21,635 nt of DNA from a virus, in IMG/VR virus record IMGVR_UViG_3300032020_000996, positions 1 to 21,635 of that record; one strand, given 5' to 3'. Under the pieces are notes generated by a model, which saw only the letters and a list, made by a program, of their open reading frames with translations, ran no database searches and was not told the origin of the DNA. Made by a program: the position numbers and the translations under genes. Positions 2,423 through 19,938 of the stretch are shown piece after piece. Numbering within the stretch: the stretch's first letter is position 1; the number at the start of each line of letters is the position of its first letter.

Positions 2423-2538
2423 CCAAATGCGAACACTGCAAGGAGACGCGAGAACTCTACGAGATCACTCTAATCCTGTGTCATGAATGTCGAATCGAAC
2501 TGGAGAAGTGGTTGAAACGAAAAAAGACGAAAGAATGA
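2419..2538 (+). CDS. micro zinc-knuckle protein (39 aa)
   Basis: GTG 2419 overlaps the previous stop (GTGA) and has GAGG at 2406-2409 as an SD nine bases upstream. The 39-aa product has two Cys-x2-Cys pairs, CEHC (residues 4-7) and CHEC (about 21-24), followed by a strongly basic helix ending WLKRKKTKE. This is a complete four-cysteine zinc site in a minimal protein, and its stop overlaps the ATG of the methyltransferase (ATGA at 2535-2538). The phased overlaps at both ends and the intact knuckles make it very likely real despite its size. The basic tail suggests nucleic-acid contact. It may act together with the preceding zinc-ribbon gene. Confidence 0.6.
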   Translation: MTKCEHCKETRELYEITLILCHECRIELEKWLKRKKTKE

Positions 2539-3380
2539 TATTCAGAATAGCTTCACGCTTCTTCCCATACACGGGAGGAAAACATTTCCTCGTCAAGAAA
2601 CTGCTGCCGTTGATTCCTCCGCACAGAGTCTACGTGGAAGTGTTTGGCGGGGCAGCGGCTCTACTCTTCGCCAAGAAACCCAGCCAAGAAGAGGTCTACA
2701 ACGACATCGACTCAAACCTTGTCAACCTGTTCATGGTTGTGAGAGATCGAAAGGAGGAATTTCTCAAGCAGATTGAGCGCCTTCCATACGCCAGAGAACT
2801 GTACACGCGATTCACGAAAGACCTGGACGAAGGCAAAATAGTAGATCCTCTCGAACGGGCCGTAGCATTCTTCTACTGCATGAGGTCCTGCTTCGCTGGG
2901 CGGTTTGGGTCCGGATGGGCCTTCACGAGAAAAGGTGCTAGTCGGGCCAGTCGCTGGGCTAACCTTCCAGAATCCCTAGCTTCGATCGCGGAGAGAATAC
3001 GGAAGCTCGATATCGACCACTTAGATTTCAGGCGATGCATAAAGAACCGAGACGCTCCCGATGTGTTCTTTTTCCTGGACCCGCCCTATCTGGGCACGAA
3101 GCAAGCCAACAAGCTTGCAATGACTGAACAGGACCACGTGGATCTGGCCGACCTCTTGCTGTCAGTTCAGGGGAAATGGCTTCTCACATACGGCAACCAT
3201 CCCTTGATCCGCAAGCTATACCGCAACCGAGGCTTTGTCGTTCAGACAATCCGTTCCAGCATGGCCTCGCGAAAATGGGGACAAGGATTGCGCGAAGGCG
3301 CCTTGGTCAACCTTGTGATTCGCAACTATCGCTTGAGGCACCGCGTAGGTAAGCAGGTAGGTAGACAAGTAGGTAAATAG
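2535..3380 (+). CDS. D12-class DNA adenine N6-methyltransferase (Dam-like)
   Basis: It should transfer a methyl group from S-adenosylmethionine to N6 of adenine in viral DNA. Visible motifs are PYTGGK at residues 11-16 (motif X, start of the D12 family), YVEVFGGAAAL at 33-43 (motif I, SAM binding), YNDID at 55-59, and the catalytic LDPPYLG around 181-187 (DPPY). At 281 aa the length is typical. The open frame extends to ATG 2487, but ATG 2535 forms an ATGA overlap with the upstream micro-gene and begins close to the conserved motif, so it is preferred. No restriction enzyme gene is adjacent, so it looks like an orphan methylase for self-protection or packaging control. The C-terminal tail is built from a 12-base tandem repeat. 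Confidence 0.92.
   Translation: MIFRIASRFFPYTGGKHFLVKKLLPLIPPHRVYVEVFGGAAALLFAKKPSQEEVYNDIDSNLVNLFMVVRDRKEEFLKQIERLPYARELYTRFTKDLDEGKIVDPLERAVAFFYCMRSCFAGRFGSGWAFTRKGASRASRWANLPESLASIAERIRKLDIDHLDFRRCIKNRDAPDVFFFLDPPYLGTKQANKLAMTEQDHVDLADLLLSVQGKWLLTYGNHPLIRKLYRNRGFVVQTIRSSMASRKWGQGLREGALVNLVIRNYRLRHRVGKQVGRQVGK
3345..3380 (+). repeat. three tandem 12-base repeats at the methyltransferase 3' end
   Basis: Units at 3345-3356, 3357-3368 and 3369-3380 all start GTAGGTA or GTAGGTAG and differ only in their last few bases. They encode the repeated tail VGKQVGRQVGK, and the last unit contains the stop codon. Slippage expansion is the simplest origin. Confidence 0.8.
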
Positions 3381-5822: not shown

Positions 5823-6938
5823 TTGAGTGAACAGACTCCTTCCTCAACTGTAACGCCAGCGGAGACTCCGACCGGCCTAGAACAGGTTCCTACACAGGAC
5901 CTTCTTCGCTTGAAGGAACAGCTCGAACCTGGCAACGTTGAGGAAAAGAAGAAGGAGGTTAAGGAAGAATTGTCGAAGGAAGAAGCAGGAAAAGGGATCG
6001 TAGCAGGAGCCTCGCTCCAGGAAGCTGTATCGCCCTGGCAGGCACAGGTATGCAACAAGCTCAGAGAAGCTTTGACGACAACGGACGCAGCGAAAGCCAT
6101 ACCAATCATCTGGTCTGCGCAGATTGAGCTCGGAGCTCAGCCCAAGCGAGTCATGAGGGCCCTAGGTATTGTGGACACGACCCTAAGGGGTCAGCCTGGC
6201 AACAAATTCTATTTCCCCAAGGTCCCAACGGTCCTTGAGGCGATAGATGCAACTGAAGCCACGAAGCCAGATGATCTCGCCGTCACCGTGGACCGCCTCG
6301 AAATAACGGTGAAGGAGATCATCGCAGCCATCTCGGTGACTCGACAGGTGATCGAACAAGTCACATTCAACGTCATCGACGTATTGACCGATCTTCTCTC
6401 TCAGGCAGTGGCGAACAAGGAAGACAAGGACATACTCGCAGCACTCAACGCTGCGTCCGGAATCGCAGGAACCATCTACGGTGGTGGAAAAGCCGCCGAG
6501 AACGAAGTTGCAGCAGGCGATGTCTTTGACACAGACATCTTGGCTGACGCCATAACAGCGATGCGGAACAACAACCGCGATGCGCGATTCATGGTAATTC
6601 ACCCAGGCCAGGAAAACGCATTGCTGAAGAGCGACAGGTTCGTCAACGCCTCGCAGTACGGTGGCCGCGAAGTGATAATGAACGGTGAGATCGGCACATA
6701 CCTAGGAATCAAGGTGCTGAAGACCACGCAGGTTCCAACCGGCACAGGTGCAGGAGGAATCACAACCTACCACGCTTTCCTACTTGGTGAGAGAGCGTGG
6801 GTCGAGGAAGTCAAACGGGATCCTGACGTGGAATCGAAGTACGAGGCAGGCGAACGTAAGACCTACATGTACGGCACCATGGAGTACGGCCTCGGCGTCT
6901 TGAACCCGAAAGGCATCGTGAAGATCATCACCGCCTAA
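5823..6938 (+). CDS. major capsid protein, HK97 fold, with N-terminal scaffold segment
   Basis: The 371-aa product builds the icosahedral shell. Residues 1-60 are Glu/Lys-rich and predicted helical (QDLLRLKEQLEPGNVEEKKK), like the delta/scaffold segment that the prohead protease removes. The rest fits the HK97 fold: an E-loop region near 120-150 (GQPGNKFYFPKVP), a long spine helix (VIDVLTDLLSQAVANKEDKD, 184-203), and an A-domain block with ARFMVIHPGQENALL (254-268) and GTYLGIKVLKTTQVP (291-305). TTG 5823 is chosen because AAAGGAG at 5807-5813 lies nine bases upstream. The cleavage point probably falls around residues 55-65. It follows the protease and basic protein in canonical order. Confidence 0.92.
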   Translation: MSEQTPSSTVTPAETPTGLEQVPTQDLLRLKEQLEPGNVEEKKKEVKEELSKEEAGKGIVAGASLQEAVSPWQAQVCNKLREALTTTDAAKAIPIIWSAQIELGAQPKRVMRALGIVDTTLRGQPGNKFYFPKVPTVLEAIDATEATKPDDLAVTVDRLEITVKEIIAAISVTRQVIEQVTFNVIDVLTDLLSQAVANKEDKDILAALNAASGIAGTIYGGGKAAENEVAAGDVFDTDILADAITAMRNNNRDARFMVIHPGQENALLKSDRFVNASQYGGREVIMNGEIGTYLGIKVLKTTQVPTGTGAGGITTYHAFLLGERAWVEEVKRDPDVESKYEAGERKTYMYGTMEYGLGVLNPKGIVKIITA

Positions 6939-12898: not shown

Positions 12899-13297
12899 AT
12901 GTCTACTCCAATCAAACCGCTACTCGCAGTCATCAAGCTCGGCGCCACCGAGATCGGTGAAGGAATGACAACTGCTGCCAGCACTTCATTCAAACGGGAC
13001 GCGGATGAGCACTACGGTTTCGGAGACGGAGGAAAGCCAAAGATTGTCATAGGAAACATGCATCAGTCCGGCAAGCTCACAAAGTGCTGGATTGACAAGA
13101 CCTACCTGGACCTTGTCAAAGCTGGAACGCCAGTCGACGTGGTCATCTACCCTGAAGGCAAAGTCGCCGGCAAGTCCACGATCACAGTGAAGAACGCAAT
13201 CCTGAACTCGCACGACTGGAAAGGAACGCAGAACGCGGTCATGGCTGAGGACGTTGCCTTCATCGGCGACGACATTCTAAGTGGAACGGCATCGTAG
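12899..13297 (+). CDS. major tail tube protein
   Basis: ATG 12899 has TAGGAGG (12882-12888) ten bases upstream. The 132-aa product fits the tube fold: an opening strand AVIKLGATEIGEG, a loop with TSFKRDADEHYGFGDGG, a helix TYLDLVKAGTPVDVVIY, and strands STITVKNAILNSHDWKGTQN and AVMAEDVAFIGDD at the end. Tube subunits of siphoviruses are of this type and polymerise around the tape measure. It is followed by the tail assembly chaperone gene and then the tape measure, the canonical order, which supports the call. No sheath gene is present beside it. Confidence 0.7.
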   Translation: MSTPIKPLLAVIKLGATEIGEGMTTAASTSFKRDADEHYGFGDGGKPKIVIGNMHQSGKLTKCWIDKTYLDLVKAGTPVDVVIYPEGKVAGKSTITVKNAILNSHDWKGTQNAVMAEDVAFIGDDILSGTAS

Positions 13298-13385
13298 ACA
13301 GCCTACCTACGAAGCCGTCCCTAGAGTTTTGAGTCATCTCGAAGTTAGAGGCGGCTCTGAACTAGAAAGAAGGAGGAAAGGAAAG

Positions 13386-13775
13386 GTGAGTGAAAAGAAA
13401 AGCGAAGGCATGAAGGAGATAGAGAAGCAAGTAGATCAAGAGATCAAGCTTCTGGAAGAAGCTGAGAAAGCGAAGTTCAAGACCCTGACTGAGATCCTGA
13501 GCGACGACACCGGACCCAAAGAGGCATACGTACCGGCATTGAACTGCAAGATCAAATATCATGAGCTGAAGTTCGGCGACTATCCCGCCCTGGCTGAGGA
13601 GAAGGATCCCTTCAAACTAGCAGTAAAGACTTTACTGCTAACTTGGGGCCGCGCTGACTCTTCGGTCACGGAGGAGAACCTGGCCCGCCTCGGCCTGGTG
13701 AAGTGCACGCGTATTCTCGAGGCCCTCGGTTTGGGTGGGGCGAGAGGCCCTTTATCCAAACCGACGCAAACCTGA
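13386..13775 (+). CDS. tail assembly chaperone, frame-0 product (G-like)
   Basis: The frame is open from 13281, but GTG 13386 with AGGAGG at 13371-13376 (nine bases upstream) is clearly the start, giving 129 aa. The N-terminus is a charged helix (KSEGMKEIEKQVDQEIKLLE), followed by a beta-like block (AYVPALNCKIKYHELKFGDY) and helices ending LVKCTRILEALGLGG. It lies between tail tube and tape measure, where the lambda G/GT chaperones lie. It ends in an overlap with a -1 frame that contains the slippery heptamer at 13748-13754. Such proteins bind the tape measure and recruit tube subunits and are usually absent from the finished virion. The role is inferred from position, size and the frameshift site. 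Confidence 0.75.
   Translation: MSEKKSEGMKEIEKQVDQEIKLLEEAEKAKFKTLTEILSDDTGPKEAYVPALNCKIKYHELKFGDYPALAEEKDPFKLAVKTLLLTWGRADSSVTEENLARLGLVKCTRILEALGLGGARGPLSKPTQT
13748..13754 (+). promoter_or_regulatory. -1 programmed ribosomal frameshift site CCCTTTA
   Basis: The heptamer CCCTTTA has the X XXY YYZ phase relative to the chaperone frame (C|CCT|TTA). It lies 21 bases before the frame-0 stop (TGA 13773-13775), exactly inside the overlap with the -1 frame. Slippage would produce a 184-aa fusion (123 aa from frame 0 plus 61 aa from the -1 frame). A G-rich stretch (13733-13740) and GAGAGG (13742-13747) precede it; whether these stimulate slippage is not testable by eye. Confidence 0.7.
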
Positions 13776-13939
13776 TTCACCTAGCGAAAAGCATCGAAGG
13801 TCAAGCGGTCCTGGCTGTCTGTGAGACTCTAGGCAAGTGGCCTGAGGAGCTCAGGAATCGACGTCTCAAGACAGTGAGTTTTCTGGTTCATGCAATCGCA
13901 GCTAGAAACGAGATGCGTAGCAATGTCGTTCTCAGTTAA
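13754..13939 (+). CDS. tail assembly chaperone, -1 frame extension (T-like part of GT)
   Basis: The -1 frame is open from at least 13703 to TAA 13937-13939. After the slip it encodes 61 residues, IQTDANLIHLAKSIEGQAVL through TVSFLVHAIAARNEMR. It is helical with coding-like composition, which is unlikely for a chance frame. An independent start (GTG 13703) lacks a properly spaced SD, so fusion to the upstream product by frameshifting is the better model. In lambda the GT extension contacts tube subunits while the G part binds the tape measure; the same division is inferred here. The gene for the gp10-like protein begins inside its last codons at 13923. Confidence 0.65.
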   Translation: MQTDANLIHLAKSIEGQAVLAVCETLGKWPEELRNRRLKTVSFLVHAIAARNEMRSNVVLS

Positions 13940-14294
13940 GATCCTGGAAGACACAGCGACGCAAATGCTGAAATCCGTATCGGAGAATCTGCAAGCCAAG
14001 GTCCATGAGCGCATCTTGAATGTAGGCCACGCTTGGATCGTGCCTTACTCGCAGTCGATCTGTCCGGTGGATACTGGATATCTCAGGAGCACAATTTTCT
14101 TTGTGTCGGTGGGGATCCTGGAGTTTTCCTTTGGCGCATCTGCTGACTATGCAATGCCAGTGGAACTAGGACACATGAGCAGAGGTGGGAGGTTTATACC
14201 GCCTCAATCTTTCATCCGGCCAGCCATCGAAACCTACTATCCGCAAATTCTCGAAGCAGTTGTTCAAGCAGTCATGGAGGCTTGCAAAGGATGA
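13923..14294 (+). CDS. HK97 gp10-like structural protein (123 aa)
   Basis: The open frame extends to 13890, but ATG 13923 fits the overlap with the chaperone extension. The protein has the hallmark order of this family: helices around TQMLKSVSENLQAKVHER, then CPVDTGYLRSTI (the conserved D-T-G-x-L-R-x-S/T block), a strand with EFSFGASADYAMPVELGH (Y-A-x-x-V-E-x-G type), then IPPQSFIRPAIE. gp10-like proteins act at the neck or head-tail junction, or as a tail completion factor. No SD is obvious; translational coupling to the upstream frames is likely. Its location between chaperone and tape measure is unusual. Confidence 0.8.
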   Translation: MSFSVKILEDTATQMLKSVSENLQAKVHERILNVGHAWIVPYSQSICPVDTGYLRSTIFFVSVGILEFSFGASADYAMPVELGHMSRGGRFIPPQSFIRPAIETYYPQILEAVVQAVMEACKG

Positions 14295-15982
14295 GCGCAG
14301 TCGGAAACGTCGTGATTGGAATCAAAGCTGTTGACGAGGCCTCGAGCACGATGGATACTATTCGTGCTTCGCTAGGCATTTTCGGCGATACGATCGGCAA
14401 GCTCGGCGGTGGCTTCGATAGTCTTGGCAGTGTGATCAAAGGGTTCGCAGGCGGAGGGGTGATGGGTGGCCTGGCCGCTACGGTCGGCGAGGTCGCGAGT
14501 GGCCTCCAGGATTGTTTCAAGGCCGCGAAGGACAGCGAAGATGTTTGGAACAAGCTAGCTGGAACGGTGGAAAGATCTGGCACTGCTTGGACTGACGTGA
14601 AAGACCAGATCGAGGCGTTCACATCCAGTGCTGAGAAGATGTCGAAGTTCAGCGATGAAAAGGTGGCGGCTGCTCTCAAGACGATGATGGATTACGGCAT
14701 GGGTCTTAACGATGCGATGAAGAGTCTTGCCACTACGATGGACCTGGCGGCAGGTAAGCAGATCGACTTGGAGACAGCTGCTAAAGCAGTTGGTCGCGCC
14801 TTCGAAGGCAACGCAAGCCTGCTCGAGAGGATGGGCGTTGCAGTCACGGAGAGCAAGGACGACTCAGTCGTATTCGCTGACGCAATGACTAAGCTGCAGG
14901 AGAAGTTCGGTGGCGCCGCGCAGAAGGATCTCGAGACCTATGCAGGGAAGCAGGCGCTAGTCGCAAACGCGATGGATAATCTGAAGGAGAAGATCGGTGG
15001 CGCCCTGATCCCTGTTCTAAGCAACTTCCAAGACATGATGGGAAATGTGGTGAAAGGCGCAGATGCTCTTGTCACGGATCTCGGCAAGGCTTGGAAGGCT
15101 TTCAGCGAGATCCCCGAAGTTAAGAAAATCGCGGAGAGCCTCAGTGGCGCCTGGATGGATATGCAGAAAGGCATGAGTCAAGTCGCAGACGAGCTGGGCA
15201 AGACGCTGATGCCTATCTTCAAAGAATTGTGGGCGACCCTGGGTGATGTCTGGAAAGCTCTCAGTCCGGTTATCGATGCATTCGGCCAAGTCTGGAAGGC
15301 CATTGTGGGCGTCGGAAAGGATGGAAAAGAAGCCTACACGATCTTCAATCTTATCGCTGACGTGTTGAAGATCACGATTGTTCCCGCTTTGACTGCTCTC
15401 GTCGAGGGGATCAAGCTTGTGACGCCACTCATTGGAGCCATGGCCACCGTGTTCAAGACCGGAATCGAAACCATACTGTTCTGGATCGGCAAACTGAACG
15501 CGGCTTTTGAAACTATCAAGAAAGCAGCGCAAGGTGTGTCTGAGTTCTTCACGAACCTTTGGAGCGGATTGACCGGTCAAACCAAGAAGGGTGTCTCAGA
15601 GGTAACAGATGAAGTCAAGAAAGGGACTAGTCAAATCACAGATGCCTTCGACGATTTGAAAAAGGAAATCTCAAGCGAATCAATCTGGCCCGATATGTGG
15701 GGAGAGATGGTTCTTCAAGCCAGAGGGGGATTTGATGAGATCCTTTCTGAGACAGCGAGAGGGGTCGATCGGTTTCAGGGAATGTTCTGGGGAGCTGCAA
15801 TAGAACTTACAGGTCCAAGGCCTGCATCCTCTCTGTCACCAGCAGGAGTAGGGGCGCCATCGAGGACAAACGTGACAGTGTATTCAAGTGTTGGGACTTT
15901 GGCTGTTGGCAACAAGTCCGAGCTTGACGACTATCTGAGGCAGTTGTATAGAACCGTGGTCGACGCGGTTCGCAGTAGTTGA
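14291..15982 (+). CDS. tape measure protein (tail length determinant)
   Basis: ATG 14291 overlaps the previous stop (ATGA) and has GGAGG at 14276-14280 ten bases upstream. The 563-aa product is largely helical with Gly/Ala-rich hydrophobic stretches (IKGFAGGGVMGGLAATVGEV near residue 57; TIVPALTALVEGIKLV and PLIGAMATVFKTGIE at about 360-395). Between them come amphipathic helices such as SAEKMSKFSDEKVAAALKTM and AAKAVGRAFEGNASLLERMG, typical of tape measure proteins. The C-terminus is a small conserved beta/helix segment (TVYSSVGTLAVGN, then LDDYLRQLYRTVVDAV). At roughly 0.15 nm per residue this predicts a tail of about 80-85 nm if the whole protein spans the tube; that figure is inference. 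Confidence 0.85.
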   Translation: MSAVGNVVIGIKAVDEASSTMDTIRASLGIFGDTIGKLGGGFDSLGSVIKGFAGGGVMGGLAATVGEVASGLQDCFKAAKDSEDVWNKLAGTVERSGTAWTDVKDQIEAFTSSAEKMSKFSDEKVAAALKTMMDYGMGLNDAMKSLATTMDLAAGKQIDLETAAKAVGRAFEGNASLLERMGVAVTESKDDSVVFADAMTKLQEKFGGAAQKDLETYAGKQALVANAMDNLKEKIGGALIPVLSNFQDMMGNVVKGADALVTDLGKAWKAFSEIPEVKKIAESLSGAWMDMQKGMSQVADELGKTLMPIFKELWATLGDVWKALSPVIDAFGQVWKAIVGVGKDGKEAYTIFNLIADVLKITIVPALTALVEGIKLVTPLIGAMATVFKTGIETILFWIGKLNAAFETIKKAAQGVSEFFTNLWSGLTGQTKKGVSEVTDEVKKGTSQITDAFDDLKKEISSESIWPDMWGEMVLQARGGFDEILSETARGVDRFQGMFWGAAIELTGPRPASSLSPAGVGAPSRTNVTVYSSVGTLAVGNKSELDDYLRQLYRTVVDAVRSS

Positions 15983-18468: not shown

Positions 18469-19938
18469 CTAGCTGTAGAATAGCCACTGCTTCATCTGAG
18501 AGGTGGGGGCTCCACCTGAGAAAAGACTCTGGACTTCGCCGAATTTCATTTGGGGCGCATAGAATGCCGGCGTCTCAAAGAACCCTCTACTATGCTCGTA
18601 TTTCCATTTTAAGTAACCACGTTGATTCCATGGAGGAATAAACAATTGAAGATGGACAATCTGCGTATCACGTAAGGGCCCACCAGTTGTACGAATCTGC
18701 ATCTGTCCAGTGTGTGATTTCCAGCACTTCAGATTCGCTACGTAGTAGGCGACGAAGCCGTGTCCACCTGCTTCGCCCTCAGTCACCCACACAACTCCAT
18801 TTGAGGTAGTTGGAATACCTATTGCCTTATTCAGCGCATCCACAAATGCACTGTTGTCTGCGCAGACACCGATGCCTCTCCCGGTTCTTCCAAAATAGCT
18901 CCAGATTAAGTCGACATTCCAGAAGTTTCTGGGACGAATCTCTTCGCCATCGATCAAGATTGGAGTCTCGGGCCTGAGCCCGCCCAGATTCCCTGGGTCA
19001 GTAGGGTTGTCCCAATGGCTGCGACCGCCCAGATAGAAGTATGATTCAACCAGCTGATTTACCAGATCGGTGTCATCCTTGAACCAATCCTTGTCTATCA
19101 TGAATCTCTGCATCTCGACTAAGGTCTGCACACTAACAGTGTCCCAAGCATAATCTCGGATGTTCGCTTTGGGTACTCTAGACTCGTCTCGCCTATCAGC
19201 CCCACTCAGAGAGTGACCGGGCCAGTTCATGTATACCGCAGCACTCCCTGACCAAACCAAGCATAACTTGGCTTCGATTGGGTAGTCTTCCAGTTGACGA
19301 TACCCTTGCTTTTTTCGGATATCATTGGTATCTCTGAAGAATGCCAGAAATTCGCTCGTATCTTTCTGCACGGCCTCTGTAACTTGCTCGTCTCCCACTG
19401 TCACCCAAAGACCATTCGCCATGGCAACGGCCAATGAGAGTGTATCGTCTTTCTTGAACTCGTTCTGGCACGCAAGCCAATACAGAACTTGAAGCTCAGT
19501 GTTGTATTCTGGAACCTTGTACGCATAGTCTCCTGGGCTTGGTGTTCCTCCTTTCATCATCAACTCAAAAGCTTCTTTGACTTCCGGATTTGTGGCGTTG
19601 AGTGCGAGATACGTGATCTTGGCGACTGCCGTCGCATTGGTAAGCTCAGGAAGTTTACGCAGTTCCCAAAACAACTGACCATACGGTGCTGTTCTATTCG
19701 ATTCTAGCAGTGATAGATAGTAGTCGACAGGTTTGACTTCGCCGATCCTGATCCATTCTGTTTGACGTTGCGGAGTAACGGCTGTTTGGGTAGCTGTGAC
19801 CCTGGTTGCAGAAGGAGTAATCGTCATAGTTGTGGGAGACATGGGGCCCGTCAGGAATTGTTGCCAACACACAACTCCCAGTATTGCTGATGCTACAATG
19901 AGCACGCTTAGAAGTTTCCATCTGCTTCTGGAAGACAT
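18469..19938 (-). CDS. membrane-anchored transglutaminase-like protein
   Basis: The 489-aa product has an N-terminal hydrophobic anchor (WKLLSVLIVASAILGVVCW, residues 7-25) preceded by basic residues. A Thr/Ser/Pro stalk follows (residues 31-58), then a large extracellular part. Near the C-terminus GIGVCADNSAFVDALNKAIG (Cys 359) and GGHGFVAYY (His 393) carry the Cys and His of the transglutaminase-like/papain-fold superfamily, with IPTTSNGVVWVTEGEAG between them. The third catalytic acid is not obvious. The middle region (YNTELQVLYWLACQNEFKKD) seems conserved in archaeal secreted homologues, as far as I recall. It is transcribed against all structural genes, so it is either a virus-carried accessory gene acting at the cell surface or host DNA. 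Confidence 0.7.
   Translation of the reverse strand: MSSRSRWKLLSVLIVASAILGVVCWQQFLTGPMSPTTMTITPSATRVTATQTAVTPQRQTEWIRIGEVKPVDYYLSLLESNRTAPYGQLFWELRKLPELTNATAVAKITYLALNATNPEVKEAFELMMKGGTPSPGDYAYKVPEYNTELQVLYWLACQNEFKKDDTLSLAVAMANGLWVTVGDEQVTEAVQKDTSEFLAFFRDTNDIRKKQGYRQLEDYPIEAKLCLVWSGSAAVYMNWPGHSLSGADRRDESRVPKANIRDYAWDTVSVQTLVEMQRFMIDKDWFKDDTDLVNQLVESYFYLGGRSHWDNPTDPGNLGGLRPETPILIDGEEIRPRNFWNVDLIWSYFGRTGRGIGVCADNSAFVDALNKAIGIPTTSNGVVWVTEGEAGGHGFVAYYVANLKCWKSHTGQMQIRTTGGPLRDTQIVHLQLFIPPWNQRGYLKWKYEHSRGFFETPAFYAPQMKFGEVQSLFSGGAPTSQMKQWLFYS

Follow-up and report, generated by a model that had tools for sequence, protein, structure and literature searches.

How many proteins are made from positions 13386-13939 of this viral DNA, and by what route? 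The window, by which we mean the whole stretch analysed, is 21,635 bases long and constitutes the complete IMG/VR virus record IMGVR_UViG_3300032020_000996. We place at roughly 0.94 the probability that a single tail assembly chaperone gene, belonging to a temperate tailed virus of Bathyarchaeia (archaea that live in sediments), occupies 13386-13939 and yields two proteins through programmed -1 ribosomal frameshifting, a reading based on comparative sequence analysis.

The chaperone gene and its overlapping -1 frame

The frame-0 gene (13386..13775, on the plus strand like all of the tail genes and signals described here) begins with GTG at 13386, ends with TGA at 13773-13775, and encodes a G-like protein of 129 aa. 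Its Shine-Dalgarno (SD) sequence, AAGGAGGA at 13370..13377, pairs with the 16S 3' end at -10.0 kcal/mol and has the same strength in the relatives that were checked. Searches with the protein matched no family in Pfam or PHROG and gave zero direct phage relatives in INPHARED. The predicted structure (pLDDT 75) comprises a helix, a beta hairpin and further helices, and Foldseek relates this fold weakly to several annotated viral tail assembly chaperones (best E about 0.04-0.05); nothing was found when the same structure was used in a fold search of the PDB.

Gene order places the locus within the tail genes. Upstream lies a putative tail tube gene (12899..13297, 132 aa), which is assigned from position and synteny and has no match in PHROG or Pfam. 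Downstream are genes for a gp10/neck1-like tail completion protein (13923..14294, 123 aa; phrog_5, E = 2.9e-11) and the tape measure protein (14291..15982, 563 aa; phrog_305, E = 8.4e-16, together with many other TMP families). The succession of tail tube gene and chaperone gene is kept in all relatives, and the chaperone gene sits between the tail tube and neck/tape-measure genes in every relative checked. The order of tail tube, chaperone and tape measure given in the initial annotation is correct as to position, but has to be amended in that the gp10-like gene (13923-14294) intervenes before the tape measure gene. The start of this gp10/neck-like gene lies within the final codons of the -1 open reading frame, and its SD is weak (-3.0 kcal/mol, compared with -9 to -10 for its neighbours), so that in the window's family its translation might be coupled to the arrival of frameshifted ribosomes.

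The open stretch of the -1 frame runs from 13658 to the TAA at 13937-13939. Within the overlap, at 13748..13754, frame 0 reads C|CCT|TTA, and the slippery heptamer C CCT TTA is therefore in the exact X XXY YYZ phase that had been claimed for it; 18 nt separate it from the frame-0 stop, or 21 if the stop codon is counted. Beyond the heptamer the -1 frame continues as a T-like extension (13754..13939) of 61 aa, and the G-T fusion of 184 aa that had been predicted earlier (123 + 61) is consistent with this open frame. The junction of the predicted fusion would read ...GPL-IQTD..., within the peptide ...GPLIQTDANLIHLAK. The T-like extension itself matches phrog_9001 (tail assembly chaperone) weakly, at E = 0.1. 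In-phase X XXY YYZ heptamers with Y = A or T number only six per 5,412 codons in the genes of the window, and the other five are all GGGAAAN. TTA supplies 10 of the 439 Leu codons in these genes (2.3%), and CCT a quarter of the Pro codons.

In the mechanism that we propose, the majority of ribosomes would remain in frame 0 and produce the 129-aa G-like chaperone. Some would pause at C CCU UUA, where both tRNAs could slip back by one base to pair with CCC UUU, and these shifted ribosomes would read on in the -1 frame to give the 184-aa G-T fusion. If the two parts act as they do in lambda gpG/gpGT, G would coat the tape measure protein while T would recruit tail tube subunits, with the rate of slippage presumably setting the ratio of the two products.

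Host lineage and related loci in Bathyarchaeia

Protein searches gave a family of ten distinct loci, namely the window, eight viral contigs and one MAG contig, across which the frame-0 protein is 56-93% identical. Every one of the ten loci has CCCTTTA in phase, 18-27 nt ahead of the frame-0 stop, and the -1 frame extends for 54-64 codons past the heptamer. Comparison of homologues had been put forward as a check by the initial annotation, and none of them either lacks the heptamer or has a broken -1 frame. The sequence flanking the heptamer diverges: one clade has ...GGARG-PL, a second has ...GKPLA-PL, and locus L016 has ...ALKS-PL. Moreover, synonymous divergence in G between clades is near saturation (pS 0.73-0.76), and the retention of CCT TTA in three clades is thus hard to explain without selection at the nucleotide level.

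Evidence on the host comes from a capsid-protein scan of genome contigs, which returned one relative, JALHTG010000078.1 (L035, the same contig as G001:C58). This 41.8-kb contig belongs to the MAG of Candidatus Bathyarchaeota archaeon PFL18 and has the gene order seen in the window; its major capsid protein (MCP) is 95% identical, and its chaperone 92% identical, to those of the window. The rest of the contig carries genes for ThiL, for crenactin (NF053560, E 2.4e-160, a strong match, yet one below the model's curated score cut-off) and for ribosomal protein L7Ae (TIGR03677, E 6.8e-46), with an integrase-like gene alongside. These host-type genes indicate that the close relative is integrated in an archaeal chromosome. 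The window itself has no host genes, and it is because of its closeness to this contig that a host in Bathyarchaeia is well supported for the window virus; the archaeal host that had been raised earlier as a possibility gains its support from the same chromosomal contig. The MCP differs in length among relatives, several of which (L035:10001-11389; L004 and others as judged by match length) have a protein about 90 aa longer than that encoded at 5823-6938 in the window. The additional residues follow residue ~35, and no Pfam domain was found in them.

When the chaperone profile was run against 257 genomes of the class to which PFL18 belongs, it matched more distant proviruses in G032 (E 6.3e-18) and G088 (E 3.4e-4). 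These loci have C CCT TTC and T TTT TTA, respectively, in phase and 54 nt ahead of the frame-0 stop, followed by a T-like extension in the -1 frame. A third such provirus locus, G144, which was obtained from a scan filtered on the heptamer, has T TTT TTG in the corresponding position and a T-like domain in -1. The heptamer-filtered scan missed most loci of a second chaperone family because frame 0 in that family runs for 84-138 nt past the site, and a domain-anchored search was used instead: genes upstream of gp10-like genes were inspected, and a G-domain profile was then applied, which identified 51 places in 32 of the 257 genomes.

All 39 distinct second-family loci that we examined have a slippery heptamer in phase at the same alignment position, the end of the G domain, and in every one of them T is encoded in the -1 frame. 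These heptamers are T TTT TTA (33 loci), A AAA AAC (4), A AAA AAA (1) and A AAA AAT (1). This search was not conditioned on the heptamer; the final two residues of the profile (FL or KN/KK) are encoded by it, and synonymous codons would have passed. The 39 loci share kinship and do not represent 39 independent events. Their T domain matches phrog_9001, again a tail assembly chaperone family, at E 2.3e-12, and gp22 of Bacillus phage Finn, annotated as a tail assembly chaperone and itself encoded in -1 after A AAA AAG, at E 9e-9. No member of the second family was found outside Bathyarchaeia in the phylum sample. One Bathyarchaeia genome (G072) contains up to five second-family copies, which suggests that a single chromosome may carry several related tailed proviruses.

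We consider it somewhat more likely than not that -1 frameshifting of the tail chaperone is general in tailed Bathyarchaeia viruses and that ribosomes of these hosts slip efficiently on pyrimidine-rich heptamers (C CCU UUA, U UUU UUA) without downstream RNA structure, which would make the viral lineages reliant on -1 recoding as a matter of routine in a TACK-type archaeon.

Selection, RNA structure and alternative explanations

Past the frame-0 stop, the dN/dS of the -1 extension is 0.07-0.34 in close pairs, and the differences between such pairs are mostly at third positions of the -1 frame. The extension is also alignable across clades around the motif HLA+S.EGQA...AC..L. By these measures of sequence change, the -1 extension evolves like a real protein, under purifying selection.

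The downstream RNA, in which a pseudoknot or stem-loop had been suggested as something to look for, gave no sign of a conserved structure of either kind: folding of +6..+66 and +6..+100 gives z values near 0 in all family members. A strong hairpin enclosing the heptamer (13725..13766) is predicted for the window and its four closest relatives and is absent from the other members, so that any role for it is putative. The window also has a G-rich stretch complementary to the anti-SD sequence about 16 nt upstream of the heptamer. An upstream SD-like stimulator has no support in the window's family, since synonymous shuffles reach equal energy. In the second family, where such a stimulator may act, the mean energy of upstream SD-like pairing is -5.8, compared with -4.3 in shuffles, an excess that is uneven across loci and does not make the median locus unusual. 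Neither the downstream structure nor the upstream SD-like stimulator of a canonical stimulated -1 frameshift signal is thus supported at the window's site; lambda-type frameshift sites are not defined by a stimulator. Within the frame-0 gene there is a near-perfect inverted repeat (CTAGCAGTAAAG/ACTTTACTGCTAA, 13618-13640), about 108 nt upstream of the heptamer, which is not conserved among relatives.

Another way to account for a conserved T-like protein would be a separate small gene that overlaps the chaperone gene and is translated from its own GTG or ATG (13703 in the window), with no frameshift at all. This proposal can draw on the presence of GTG, ATG or TTG 45 nt upstream of the heptamer in nine of the ten family members, the exception being L016. 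GTG 13703, however, which is the only -1-frame start upstream of the window's heptamer, has no SD sequence, and the conserved codon coincides with frame-0 Lys/Asn-Cys codons, of which it appears to be a by-product. Upstream of the heptamer, the -1 frame has no ATG, GTG or TTG in L016, L113, L114 and L109, and no start in 29 of the 39 second-family loci, 21 of which lack one all the way to a point 90 nt short of the -1 stop; in L109, L092 and L106 the entire -1 open reading frame is devoid of start codons. The earlier statement that the -1 frame has no proper start of its own agrees with these findings. Separate initiation of T is disfavoured because so many homologues have no start codon, and it would leave the invariance of a heptamer built from rare codons unexplained. 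We regard it as very unlikely.

The fusion might instead arise through slippage of the polymerase, rather than the ribosome, on the slippery run, and the homopolymer-like sites of the second family (T TTT TTA, A AAA AAN) would be compatible with such an origin. The runs in CCCTTTA, by contrast, are three bases each, which is too short for efficient polymerase slippage, and the X XXY YYZ phase is needed only for tandem tRNA slippage, so that transcriptional slippage seems to us slightly less probable still. Finally, the window is a single contig from a metagenomic assembly, and an overlap of this kind could in principle stem from gene decay or from an indel introduced during sequencing or assembly. 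The frames and the stop are nevertheless identical in ten separately assembled contigs, one of them a MAG, and both parts are under purifying selection; the conservation of the frame-0 stop and of the -1 frame already refutes an artefact or decay, to which we give a negligible probability. Programmed ribosomal frameshifting at C CCU UUA is thus the explanation that we prefer.

Relation to known systems and other genes of the window

Frameshifting by -1 in tail chaperone genes is classical in phages. The window resembles lambda G/GT in the position within the tail operon, in the combination of a frame-0 G with a G-T fusion in -1, and in having a classical X XXY YYZ heptamer close to where G ends. 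It differs in the heptamer itself (C CCU UUA rather than G GGA AAG), in the neck/gp10-like gene between T and the tape measure gene, in a G without detectable sequence similarity, and in its archaeal host. Similarly, gp21/gp22 of Bacillus phage Finn (Andromedavirus) has a T homologous to that of the second family and likewise read in -1, past an A AAA AAG heptamer that lies 3 nt ahead of the stop, but the host is bacterial and the homology extends to the T of the second family, not demonstrably to that of the window.

Among archaeal viruses, a -1 shift in the tail assembly chaperone was reported earlier for the haloviruses HVTV-1 and HCTV-1, -2 and -5 (PMC5009743, PMC8211752) and, at G GGA AAT, for the halovirus Hardycor1 (PMC7911831). 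These are likewise tailed viruses of archaea with the shift in the same gene (PMC5009743, PMC8211752, PMC7911831), but their hosts are Halobacteria and their heptamers are G GGA AAN or A AAA AAC, whereas those in Bathyarchaeia are mostly the pyrimidine-rich C CCT TTA and T TTT TTA. The suggestion in the initial annotation that this locus would be a useful case of archaeal -1 recoding therefore stands as far as the host is concerned, although the haloviruses precede it. The word "frameshift" is absent from the Bathyarchaeia virus and provirus papers PMC10848311 and PMC11705971 in the open-access literature (earlier reports may exist elsewhere), and in the survey of archaeal tailed viruses PMC8651126 it occurs only in one reference title. 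The kind of event is thus already known from lambda G/GT-type genes and haloviruses, and the novelty lies in its apparently general occurrence among tailed Bathyarchaeia viruses and proviruses.

Recoding in archaea is poorly documented; for frameshifting, a review lists little beyond a fucosidase made by a -1 shift and a few haloviruses (PMC8211752). The present loci would add a -1 frameshift that is independent, deeply conserved and found in another archaeal phylum. Together, the 10 + 3 + 39 loci also provide over 50 natural sites that can be compared to learn on which heptamers the ribosomes of archaea slip and whether a stimulator is needed, as well as a rule for annotating Bathyarchaeia proviruses, in which the T domain is otherwise missed or called as a separate hypothetical gene.

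The window has no tRNA genes. On the minus strand, a gene at 18469-19938 adjoins the integrase gene and is possibly a cargo gene; its product, 489 aa long, has a hydrophobic stretch at the N terminus and no Pfam match. Between the terminase and portal genes, positions 2487-3380 encode a D12-class adenine methyltransferase (PF02086, E 1.2e-26), which is also present in L007 and L035.
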